Origin: Candidatus Bathyarchaeota archaeon
GTDB lineage: Archaea > Thermoproteota > Bathyarchaeia > TCS64
Length of the DNA: 55,125 nt
Assembly: GCA_016783455.1 (NCBI GenBank)
Contig: JADHWN010000012.1
Location: 1-55,125 of the forward strand
Direction: 5' to 3'
A program made the translations under genes and the position numbers. The notes under the pieces were generated by a model that had not been told where the DNA came from, searched no databases, and saw only the letters and a list, made by a program, of their open reading frames with translations. Positions 7,167 to 11,537 of the stretch are shown in pieces; within the stretch, counting starts at the first letter, position 1; each line of letters begins with the position of its first letter.

Positions 7167-8777
7167 TTATGCTTCTACGGCTGCAACCTCGCTCTTTCTT
7201 GACATGTAGTAGGCGATGGCGTATCCGATAACCGCACCGACCACTAACCCGCCACCAAGCCCCATGTATAGGTTGTTCTGTGTCTGTGCCTTTACTTCAT
7301 CTAGCTGAGCCTCGTACTGGGCGATCAACGCCTCACGTTCACTCCTCAACTGAGTGGACAGCTCAGTTCTGGCTGCTGCCGCCAGACCCGTAGCGCTGTC
7401 ATATTTCTCCAGTGCGAACGTGTGCCATTCGGAGATGTACTCGTTCCTGATCTCTGCGTCGCTCCAATCCTCCGCAGCAGCTAGGGCCTCTGCAGATGAC
7501 AGGGGCACCTCTCCAAGCTTGTCCTTGGCCGCCTCTATGTTCATTGATGTGATCCCAGCTTCTTCGAGGGTGCTCTCGGTAGCGATAATATCGACCCAAG
7601 CAGCTACCAAGTCCTCGTGGCTGTCAATTACCATTGAGCCGAAGAGGTCGTTTACGAATGAATAGCGTATTGAACCCAAGTCAGCATCGTAGTCCAGTGA
7701 GGACTCCACTTCAAAGGGGTTGATGGGCACGACTGTGATATCCGCAAGTTCATCGAAAAGGCTCGGTATCACGCACATACGTCCAAGCAGGTAATCCGTT
7801 GGTCCACCTTCGGCACCCACATCGAGCATCCAGAGTTTCTGTCCAGCTTCAGACAGCGCGTATTCCACGAATCTCTGTGCAACCTCCAGGTTTGGTGCCC
7901 CCTTGAGGATAGCGATGCTGTCCGGGTTGATCACCGTCAGCCCCGAAGGCATGACGTAGCCGATCTTATCGGCCCCAACCTTTGAGACCTCGGACCATGC
8001 GTAGAAGTCGATGGCTAGTCCATATGCGACGTCTCCGGCACCTACAGATTTAGGAACTGCACTTGAGCTTGAGGGGAAGCTCTTGATGTTGGCGCCCATT
8101 AAAGTCGCCAGCTTCACACCTTCCTCCCAGCCATATGCCTGCAGAATGATCTCGTACATCATGTGAGTGCTGCCACTGTGACGTGGATCTGCGGAACCTA
8201 CCCAGCCCTTGAGCTGCGGATCCGTCAGATCCTCCCAGGTCTCTGGCACGGGTAATCCCTCCAACTCAAGCAACGCCTTATTGTAGATGATGCCGAAGCC
8301 GGAGAGAGCAGAACCGTACCACGTGTAATCAGGATCATACATGGGTACACCAGCTATAGTCGCAGGTATCTTGCTTAGGACCGCCTCGCTGACCTCATAT
8401 GCTTGAAATTGTCCTTTTTCCTTTGCGGCTATGAATGGGTCGACGCCACCGCCCCAGAAAACATCTATGCCGATACTTTCTGGAGTTGCTTCAAAGGCAG
8501 AGTCAACATACTTGATAACATCTGAAGTACCACCGACATCGAGCCATTGGATATTGACTATATCACCGAATGTCTCAAGGTAGTAGGCTTCGAAGGCAGC
8601 TTCATACTCTTTTCTGATGCCTTCCCAGTGAGGGGTTATGATAACTAGATCAACATCGGGGTTCGCTTGTACTATGCCGACGACTCCCGACACTGCGAGT
8701 GTCGTCGTCAACAGCATACATAGGATGAATACTTCTTTCTTTTTCACTTCCGTTTTCCTCCATTGACTATTAGTCAA
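7167..8777 (-). CDS. Membrane-anchored ABC solute-binding protein, Fe3+-type
   Basis: The 536-aa protein has an N-terminal hydrophobic segment (about residues 16-38), then a type 2 periplasmic-binding fold (about 40-370, with 'DLVIITPHWEGIRKEYEAAF', 'VPETWEDLTDP' and 'GWVGSADPRHSGSTHMMYEI') resembling FbpA/Fe3+ and related binding proteins. The C-terminal region has a coiled coil (about 455-500) and a membrane segment 'LGGGLVVGAVIGYAIAYYMS' with a basic cytoplasmic tail, so the receptor is tethered at both ends. It is the first gene of the importer operon. A 17-bp perfect palindrome sits just upstream, probably overlapping the transcription start. Confidence 0.88.
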   Translation of the reverse strand: MTNSQWRKTEVKKKEVFILCMLLTTTLAVSGVVGIVQANPDVDLVIITPHWEGIRKEYEAAFEAYYLETFGDIVNIQWLDVGGTSDVIKYVDSAFEATPESIGIDVFWGGGVDPFIAAKEKGQFQAYEVSEAVLSKIPATIAGVPMYDPDYTWYGSALSGFGIIYNKALLELEGLPVPETWEDLTDPQLKGWVGSADPRHSGSTHMMYEIILQAYGWEEGVKLATLMGANIKSFPSSSSAVPKSVGAGDVAYGLAIDFYAWSEVSKVGADKIGYVMPSGLTVINPDSIAILKGAPNLEVAQRFVEYALSEAGQKLWMLDVGAEGGPTDYLLGRMCVIPSLFDELADITVVPINPFEVESSLDYDADLGSIRYSFVNDLFGSMVIDSHEDLVAAWVDIIATESTLEEAGITSMNIEAAKDKLGEVPLSSAEALAAAEDWSDAEIRNEYISEWHTFALEKYDSATGLAAAARTELSTQLRSEREALIAQYEAQLDEVKAQTQNNLYMGLGGGLVVGAVIGYAIAYYMSRKSEVAAVEA

Positions 8778-9502: not shown

Positions 9503-9733
9503 TGCTCTCCTCAAATACAATTCATTGAATTCATTTATAATAATCCCCAGCTCCGACCAAGCATACGGCGAATCTGATAACTAACTGAAAAAATTGCGTT
9601 ATTTTACGTATATAATTAGAAAAAAAGGACTTTTTTAGTAATGGGTTTTAAAACATCTTATTCTTCTCATATATCACGTAAAAAAGATATAATATTTATC
9701 TAGGACCCCTTTCTAAGGTTCAATGGTGGTTTC

Positions 9734-9916
9734 TTGTCAGAGGATCTAAAAAAAACGAAGGAAGCCATAAGGAAGAAGGGGGCCAAGTGGAAGGCTGATG
9801 ACACGAGCATGTCAGAGCTCACACCTGAAGAGAGGGGAAAGCGTTTAGGCCTGCTGCCTTCTGAGGACGAGCTTGAGGAGTCTAAGAAAAAGGGCCTTCG
9901 AAAGGATAACGAATAG
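9734..9916 (+). CDS. Stand-alone cysteine-peptidase prodomain-like protein (candidate inhibitor)
   Basis: The 60-aa protein starts at TTG 9734 with GGTGGT 4 nt upstream and a TATA-like TATTTAT at about 9691. It aligns along most of its length with the first ~55 residues of the papain-like peptidase encoded at 10407-11537. Shared blocks are KGAKW, then a threonine/serine-rich loop, 'LTPEERGKRLGLLP' versus 'LSTEEKAQRLGLLP', and a Gly-Leu pair after them. Having no catalytic domain, it is comparable in concept to free papain-prodomain inhibitors (crammer, CTLA-2); that role is inference. It converges on the peptidase operon from its own promoter. Confidence 0.75.
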   Translation: MSEDLKKTKEAIRKKGAKWKADDTSMSELTPEERGKRLGLLPSEDELEESKKKGLRKDNE

Positions 9917-10003
9917 CTCCGACTTAGATGGGTGCGGAGCCAACATTATTCTCAGGTGATTCTGGGTCCCCGTTATTAGAAAAAAGGTGGAGAGATTGGG
10001 AGG

Positions 10004-10396
10004 CTAGTACTTCTTCCAGCATCTGACGAAGTTTATCGTGTTGTTAGACCACCAGACGTCCAGTCTGTCGGCCTCCATGACCACCTTAGCTATCCCGGTT
10101 ACCTGGGCTTCGTTGATGTTCCTGCCCCTCCAGCTGCCCCCGACGTAGGCCCAAAGCCGCCGAACCGCAGATGTGAAAACGTAGTCCACTAGGGCGTGTG
10201 TTGCGGTTCCGCTCTGGGCGGCTGAGATGCCCAGCACCTGGACGAGCTCCGGTTCCTTACCGTAGGCTTCCACTGACGCCTGCGCCAGCTCCGCTTCCAT
10301 GGGAACCTGTGCTACTGGTATCATACCTGCCTCCATGGACGCGTAGAGTTTCTGCGCCTCCTCCTCAAGCTCCTTGAATATCTTCTCCTCACTCAT
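10004..10396 (-). CDS. Protein sharing the C-terminal module of the adjacent papain-like peptidase
   Basis: The 130-aa protein has an N-terminal half that is helical and acidic ('EEKIFKELEEEAQKLYASME'). Residues 64-130 match the last ~65 residues of the upstream peptidase: 'THALVDYVFTSAVRRLWAYV' against 'SHLLVDYSFTSGARTLWAYA', then W-R, 'AKVVMEADRLDVWW' against 'AKLLMEASKIWVCW', and a shared basic end. The module is small, aromatic-rich and probably beta-rich. I know of no assigned function; recruitment or ligand binding is a guess. The gene follows the peptidase gene by 10 nt and is probably co-transcribed. Confidence 0.75.
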   Translation of the reverse strand: MSEEKIFKELEEEAQKLYASMEAGMIPVAQVPMEAELAQASVEAYGKEPELVQVLGISAAQSGTATHALVDYVFTSAVRRLWAYVGGSWRGRNINEAQVTGIAKVVMEADRLDVWWSNNTINFVRCWKKY

Positions 10397-10406
10397 GCTC
10401 TATCAC

Positions 10407-11537
10407 CTACTTCACGGCCCTCGCGAAGGTCATCTCACCGTCCTTCCAGCAGACCCAGATCTTGCTGGCCTCCATGAGCAGCTTCGCTATGCTGTTCACC
10501 TGCGACTCCGTTATTCTCCTGTATCTCCACTTGTTTCCAGCGTACGCCCAGAGGGTTCTTGCCCCCGACGTGAAGGAGTAGTCCACCAGCAGGTGGCTGG
10601 CCCAGCCGCATCCAGAGGGCTTCGGGACGACCATGTTCCACATACCAAAGATGTCCTTTATGCCACACTGACCGTACTTTATCCTGAACCAGCCTCGTTC
10701 ACCGGCATAGGCCTCTCCCCAGCCCTTGCCCCAGCTGTTCTTACATATCCAGCACTCGTTCTGGTCGTCGTAGCCCACGACGGCCACGCAGTGGTAGCCG
10801 GCTAGGCCGCCGCTGACATGCTCGTAGATGCCGCCGGAGTAGCTGAAGAAGTCCTGATAGACCGCCATGCCTGTGATCTGGGGGCCGTTGTCGATGAGGT
10901 TCCTCTTCATCTGCTCCACGTCCTTGGTGTTGGTCCAGCTCGGGATCTTCGTGTGGCCTATCCGTGACATCCAGTCGGAGCACGTCGTGCAGGACTTTGT
11001 GCTCAGGCCGTGTGCGTATGGGAAGCAGGCCTCGTCTGGCACCCCGTTGGCCTTGAGGTAGTTGCAGGCGTGGTTCATGTGCCATCCGTTGCAGCTCCCG
11101 CCGCCACAGAACTGGAGGTGGGCCTCGGAGAGGTCGATGTTCTTGTTCGGGTCGTTGTAGCATCTCCTCCGAAGGAGGGTATCCAGGGCTGCGATGGTTC
11201 CGAAGGCCACGCATGAGCCACAGCTACCTTGGTCCTTGATGGAGGTCGTCCAGTTTACGCCGCTCACGTTCCTCCAGTCGATCTTCGAGGGGAGCCCCGC
11301 GGAGCCGGGGTTGGAGGTTTTACTAGTCTTCTTGGAGCTGCTTTTATTGGTTAGAGGTTTGTCGAGGCCTAGTTCCGTTGCGAGGCTCGTCTCCATCTCC
11401 GTGGGGAGCAGCCCGAGCCTCTGGGCCTTCTCCTCTGTGGAGAGCAGCGTGAGGGTGGTCTCCTCTGGAGTCCATTTTGCGCCTTTGTCTTTTACTGCTG
11501 ATTTCAGTGTCTCTAGGGAAATTTCCTCTTGGTCCAT
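10407..11537 (-). CDS. Papain-like (C1A) cysteine peptidase with N- and C-terminal accessory modules
   Basis: The 376-aa protein has three parts. Residues 1-58 form a prodomain-like module ('KDKGAKWTPEETTL', 'RLGLLP'). A Ser/Lys-rich linker follows. The C1A catalytic domain starts at about 85 with 'LPSKIDWRNVSGVNWTTSIK'. The triad is intact: Cys109 in DQGSCGSCVAFG, His249 in 'GLAGYHCVAVVGYDD' and Asn267 in CKNSWGKGWGE; Gln103 can form the oxyanion hole. Residues about 312-376 are the module also found in the next gene. There is no signal peptide, so the enzyme is probably cytosolic unless exported another way. The catalytic core has many Cys residues and likely disulfides or metal sites. Confidence 0.9.
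   Translation of the reverse strand: MDQEEISLETLKSAVKDKGAKWTPEETTLTLLSTEEKAQRLGLLPTEMETSLATELGLDKPLTNKSSSKKTSKTSNPGSAGLPSKIDWRNVSGVNWTTSIKDQGSCGSCVAFGTIAALDTLLRRRCYNDPNKNIDLSEAHLQFCGGGSCNGWHMNHACNYLKANGVPDEACFPYAHGLSTKSCTTCSDWMSRIGHTKIPSWTNTKDVEQMKRNLIDNGPQITGMAVYQDFFSYSGGIYEHVSGGLAGYHCVAVVGYDDQNECWICKNSWGKGWGEAYAGERGWFRIKYGQCGIKDIFGMWNMVVPKPSGCGWASHLLVDYSFTSGARTLWAYAGNKWRYRRITESQVNSIAKLLMEASKIWVCWKDGEMTFARAVK

Follow-up and report, generated by a model that had tools for sequence, protein, structure and literature searches.

A 60-aa protein encoded beside a papain-like cysteine peptidase in a Candidatus Bathyarchaeota genome is a free-standing papain-family prodomain, without a catalytic domain or a signal peptide, and we consider it likely to be a trans-acting inhibitor of the neighbouring cytosolic enzyme. 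The genes lie in a window of 55,125 nt (assembly GCA_016783455.1, contig JADHWN010000012.1, positions 1 to 55,125 of the forward strand), and related free modules are found in one genome of the Hermodarchaeota and three of the Halobacteriota. An original prediction made from the letters of the window had proposed a peptidase paired with a free prodomain-like protein, and the evidence presented below bears on each part of that proposal.

The peptidase cassette

The peptidase and the small protein are encoded on opposite strands, as originally proposed, with a gene for a 130-aa protein between them, whose copy of the peptidase C-terminal module the original prediction missed (Table 1). The peptidase belongs to family C1A, carrying both the PF00112 domain and the Gln, Cys, His and Asn active-site residues, and it is the only C1 peptidase found in its genome. 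It is built of three parts, an N-terminal module, a catalytic domain and a C-terminal module, and has no hydrophobic signal peptide. The original prediction also gave the small gene its own promoter. A separate archaeal promoter is plausible, since a TATA-like element of archaeal type and a GGTGG motif precede the ORF, the former recognized by its match to the consensus.

Table 1. Features of the peptidase cassette in the window
Feature	Position (nt)	Strand	Remarks
TATA-like element ATATAATATTTAT	about 9687..9699	+	Upstream of the free prodomain gene, in an intergenic stretch of 30% GC; consensus match only
GGTGG, possible ribosome-binding (Shine–Dalgarno-like) site	9725..9729	+	4 nt before the TTG; read from the sequence
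60-aa free prodomain protein	9734..9916	+	TTG start; conserved W19, L29, E33, R37-L38-G39-L40, P42
130-aa protein	10004..10396	-	About 10 nt behind the peptidase; residues 58–130 repeat the peptidase C-terminal module
376-aa papain-family (C1A) peptidase	10407..11537	-	No signal peptide; active-site Q103, C109, H249, N267
Peptidase C-terminal module, residues 306–376	10410..10622	-	Predicted beta/alpha, low confidence
Peptidase_C1 catalytic domain, residues 82–296	10650..11294	-	Pfam PF00112, E = 5.3e-40
Fused N-terminal prodomain module, residues 5–55	11373..11525	-	Alignment, AlphaFold model, Foldseek

Evidence for a papain-family prodomain

First, the 60-aa protein is homologous to residues 5–55 of the peptidase. 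When it was searched against its own genome (2.19 Mb in 83 contigs, 75% complete), only the protein itself and the peptidase N terminus were found with confidence, the latter with an E value of 4.2e-9 and 43% identity over 53 residues (residues 5–57). The next match had an E value of 0.34, so the resemblance that the original prediction had pointed out is not due to chance. The small protein adds about 10 charged residues to the prodomain and has no second domain, and no remnant of a catalytic domain lies nearby. Searches of Pfam, NCBIfam and the PDB with the single 60-aa sequence gave no matches, the Pfam search extending to E values of 1 and including Propeptide_C1 (PF08127) and Inhibitor_I29.

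Second, the module shared by the two proteins is a genuine papain-family prodomain, as had been surmised. An initial scan of named genomes gave 32 relatives across bacteria and archaea, the nearest with the same module belonging to a Bathyarchaeota MAG of the same family (G015). Sixty-five distinct ORFs carry the module together with a C1 catalytic domain, always with the module in front and, in secreted peptidases, after the signal peptide; a main occurrence in proteins unrelated to peptidases, which would have spoken against the proposal, is not what we observe. A profile of 27 modules, compared with 177,635 PDB sequences, found the Drosophila inhibitor crammer (2L95) as its best match (E = 1.2e-5), covering only residues 38–79 of the 80-residue chain; crammer was reached by this profile only, not by the single 60-aa sequence. 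Propeptide_C1, the Pfam family of the cathepsin B propeptide, matched 9 of the 27 modules (best E = 8.8e-5), and Inhibitor_I29 matched none of the modules tested. A profile of whole peptidases aligned with procathepsin L and cathepsin C along their propeptides as well.

Third, structure prediction points to a zymogen-like arrangement of the fused copy. AlphaFold, given a 45-sequence alignment (the Deinococcus plasmid protein described below was left out of the alignments for folding), modelled the peptidase with a pLDDT of 86 and a pTM of 0.81, the N-terminal module reaching a pLDDT of 93–97. The best Foldseek matches to this model were the procathepsin B zymogens 4i04, 1pbh and 1mir, over 332–356 columns and ahead of mature enzymes, and the modelled prodomain is arranged as in papain-family zymogens. 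The isolated 60-aa protein was modelled with middling confidence (pLDDT 75, pTM 0.40), and Foldseek returned nothing usable for it. A strand at residues 21–24 of the peptidase model is missing from the isolated model, as would be expected if the strand forms by docking; we infer that it may arise when the module pairs with the catalytic domain, in the way known zymogens do.

Fourth, residues that matter for inhibition by animal prodomain homologues are retained in the 60-aa protein (W19, G39 and RLGLLP). The module Trp is invariant in 45 of 45 aligned peptidases, equal in this to the catalytic Gln, and in the alignment of the module profile with crammer it falls on W53. The crammer W53A variant keeps its fold and loses inhibition of cathepsin B; W53 presumably contacts the prosegment-binding loop (PMC3551606). 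The nearly invariant module Gly (G39 in the 60-aa protein) aligns with crammer G73, whose replacement by Ala raises Ki from 4.7 nM to over 1000 nM (PMC4089206). The silkworm inhibitor BCPI ends in RLGLRLP and a short tail, and deletion from LGLR onward abolishes its inhibition (PMC4089206); the RLGL of the 60-aa protein is identical to this segment. Full I29 prodomains have a first helix whose aromatic core is important to the inhibitory action of crammer (PMC3551606). The 60-aa protein is without this helix, and the absence, together with the middling isolated model and that model's lack of a Foldseek match, counts against the inhibitor reading.

Free prodomains in other genomes

A profile search for further free copies, which the original prediction had suggested as a check, found one in Hermodarchaeota and three in Halobacteriota. 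The Hermodarchaeota copy (JAEOTO010000011.1, L021/L122) is a free module of 61 aa, encoded divergently at a distance of 134 bp from the only C1 peptidase of its genome. It is the closest relative of the 60-aa protein of the window, with 49% identity across phyla. IMG/VR held no relative of these two free proteins, and phage records gave only distant C1 peptidases that aligned outside the N-terminal module. At the same locus, the fused prodomain of the peptidase (L021, 5995-7350, + strand) is strongly diverged and falls below the profile threshold, and it is the free copy that agrees with the family profile, as though it had replaced the fused prodomain.

The three Halobacteriota genomes (G1024, G1067 and G1085) encode free modules of 84–105 aa with a signal-peptide-like start, and their fused peptidases lie elsewhere in the genome. 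The free genes adjoin the gene for the tRNA methyltransferase aTrm56, directly upstream of it (L123, 7742-7996, + strand; L124, 8220-8474, + strand; L125, about 8094-8219, - strand), with no peptidase nearby at these three loci; this separation also counts against the inhibitor reading. Leaderless free copies thus accompany leaderless peptidases in two archaea and signal-like starts occur in the others, so that the start of the free protein matches the compartment. In four of the five genomes with a free copy, that copy agrees with the profile more closely than the fused module does; the contrast is sharpest in Hermodarchaeota. A tree of the modules (72 rows, with 47 columns that resolve little) requires the free form to have arisen at least twice. 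Free forms are rare, occurring in 1 of 228 genomes of the Hermodarchaeota phylum, 3 of 247 Halobacteriota, 1 of 257 of the window's class and 0 of 251 Chloroflexota. A different elaboration is seen in secreted Halobacteriota peptidases (L096, L113 and L130, the last in G1226), which have an apparent second, degenerate prodomain module ahead of the normal one.

These free copies also bear on whether the 60-aa ORF is a functionless fragment, decaying after a duplication of the peptidase gene. Its small size, its TTG start, its correspondence to part of the larger gene next to it and the rarity of the module in the class (a strong match in 2 of 257 genomes) would all fit such an origin, which we nevertheless regard as highly improbable: the ORF is intact and preceded by promoter-like and Shine–Dalgarno-like elements, its functional residues are kept, and its closest relative is itself a free copy from a different phylum. 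A search for catalytic-domain remnants found none beside any free gene in all five genomes, lending no support to decay. Further, the three Halobacteriota genomes keep the free copy in conserved synteny, with a dN of 0.02 against a dS of 0.07 in the closest pair, a comparison based on few changes.

Module copies and a possible inhibitor slot

The window cassette is modular at both ends. The gene for the 130-aa protein is probably co-transcribed with the peptidase, and the N-terminal part of its product, about 57 residues, belongs to no known family. That each end module of the peptidase also exists as a free copy suggests assembly by module exchange, and it is what would favour a role of the free prodomain as an adaptor that sits on the prosegment-binding loop and brings the peptidase to a partner, such as the 130-aa protein, leaving the cleft unblocked. 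We judge such a role very unlikely, as the free protein hardly extends beyond the prodomain and offers no second domain to a partner, and conservation of the cleft-spanning RLGL-P segment would be unnecessary.

A peptidase followed by a protein with a copy of the C-terminal module is a layout seen in the window and at two other loci (L116 and L053), and the order peptidase, C-terminal-module copy, chagasin occurs in Halobacteriota (G1089) and Deinococcus aetherius. The D. aetherius plasmid pDAETH-2 (L053, 2938-6084) encodes in a row a C1 peptidase with the N-terminal module, a C-terminal-module copy, a chagasin-family inhibitor and a caspase-family protein, an arrangement suggestive of a regulated protease system. 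Homology of the window C-terminal module to those of Deinococcus and the Halobacteriota locus was considered and not established (hhalign probability 0.5%; phmmer E of about 1e-3 in a tiny database).

A gene for chagasin (I42) usually accompanies comparable cytosolic peptidases: it lies close behind leaderless peptidases of this type in G015, G698, G1089, G1181, G1226 and a Deinococcus plasmid. No I42 gene was found at the two leaderless free-prodomain loci or across their genomes, that of the window (75% complete) and that of the Hermodarchaeota. Over 50 genomes, chagasin is present in none of 5 with a free prodomain and in 18 of 45 others, a difference that is not significant (p of about 0.1). 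The sharper contrast in a smaller set of 11 genomes (0 of 5 against 6 of 6) comes from a set picked partly after chagasin had been seen, and mutual exclusion is therefore only suggestive, a hint that free prodomain and chagasin occupy one and the same inhibitor slot. On contig 4 of G015 (L126), peptidase and chagasin genes are separated by one for an acidic protein of 152 aa whose internal repeats (ELEMTELMLELAPAEL...) are near-perfect.

A broader proposal, which we think unlikely, would make the cassette a cytosolic 'armed peptidase' module common to archaeal phyla and bacteria, with a slot for interchangeable inhibitors (occupied by chagasin at most loci and by a free prodomain in two archaeal phyla) and duplicated C-terminal modules as sensor or scaffold, acting in the manner of a toxin–antitoxin or regulated-suicide system. 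The caspase-family gene of the Deinococcus version hints at the toxin–antitoxin or suicide aspect.

Proposed mode of action

We propose that the peptidase, which has its own fused prodomain, is made as a zymogen, and that the separate copy would catch enzyme whose own prodomain had been lost or loosened. The segment around Trp19 would contribute a strand to the prosegment-binding loop of the enzyme, and the RLGL-P segment would thread the cleft in reverse, passing the catalytic Cys109. Release would come with removal of the small protein or its being titrated out. By catching loosened enzyme in this way, the separate copy would allow the cell to keep a potent peptidase in the cytosol and to release it.

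With a prodomain already fused to the window peptidase, a second one is not indispensable, a point that weighs against an inhibitor. Prodomains of the papain-type class can assist folding. The free copy might serve mainly as a trans-acting folding chaperone or stabilizer that keeps the peptidase folded rather than switched off, in line with the stabilization of cathepsin L at neutral pH by CTLA-2alpha and crammer (PMC4089206) and with the Hermodarchaeota locus, where a badly diverged fused module beside a free copy that fits the profile suggests that the free copy may have taken over a shared job. We hold a role chiefly in folding to be distinctly unlikely, given that the fused prodomain in the window is intact and that the best-conserved residues of the free copy are those tied to inhibition in animals.

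Relation to known inhibitors

Free prodomain homologues that inhibit cysteine peptidases are established in animals, as the original prediction stated: the I29 inhibitors crammer (Drosophila), BCPI (Bombyx) and CTLA-2alpha (mouse) are, like the 60-aa protein, free-standing homologues of papain prodomains. The 60-aa protein shares with them the Trp of crammer W53, the Gly of crammer G73 and the RLGL of BCPI. It differs from them in being about 25% shorter, in missing the first helix (the ERFNIN part), in giving no match to Pfam I29, in having no signal peptide and in being encoded beside the gene of its presumed target. With Propeptide_C1 (PF08127) it shares the short length and the W-x-AG...L-x-G pattern, and the peptidase model is closest to procathepsin B zymogens; the cathepsin B propeptide, however, is fused to its enzyme, whereas the 60-aa protein is free.

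The original prediction also held that an archaeal pair of this kind would be unusual. In the literature searched, no free prodomain inhibitor is reported from archaea or as the neighbour of a prokaryotic C1A peptidase, and passages of a 2023 survey of prokaryotic C1A peptidases, which describe widespread transfer from bacteria to archaea (PMC10380794), do not mention free prodomains. A prokaryotic precedent nonetheless exists: in Streptococcus pyogenes, the gene of the peptidase SpeB adjoins that of Spi, a free analogue of the propeptide by which SpeB is inhibited (cited in PMC2873492). The juxtaposition of a propeptide-analogue gene with a prokaryotic peptidase gene recurs in the window and, at 134 bp, in Hermodarchaeota, but SpeB is a bacterial C10 peptidase and secreted virulence factor, in contrast to the archaeal C1A enzyme. 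Chagasin beside prokaryotic C1A peptidases, including the nearest relatives of the window peptidase, is likewise a small inhibitor encoded next to the enzyme; it differs in its Ig-like fold, which is unrelated to the prodomain, and was not found in the window or Hermodarchaeota genomes. Already known, then, are free prodomain inhibitors from animals (I29) and an analogue for a streptococcal enzyme of another family; new would be a minimal, cytosolic version of cathepsin B propeptide length paired with an archaeal C1A peptidase.

If the 60-aa protein does inhibit its neighbour, the turning of an enzyme's own prodomain into a separate inhibitor would have arisen several times, including outside eukaryotes, and its 60 residues would provide a minimal inhibitor for dissecting how prodomains block cysteine cathepsins. 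For the uncultured sediment archaea that carry it, the cassette points to a tightly controlled cysteine peptidase in the cytosol.
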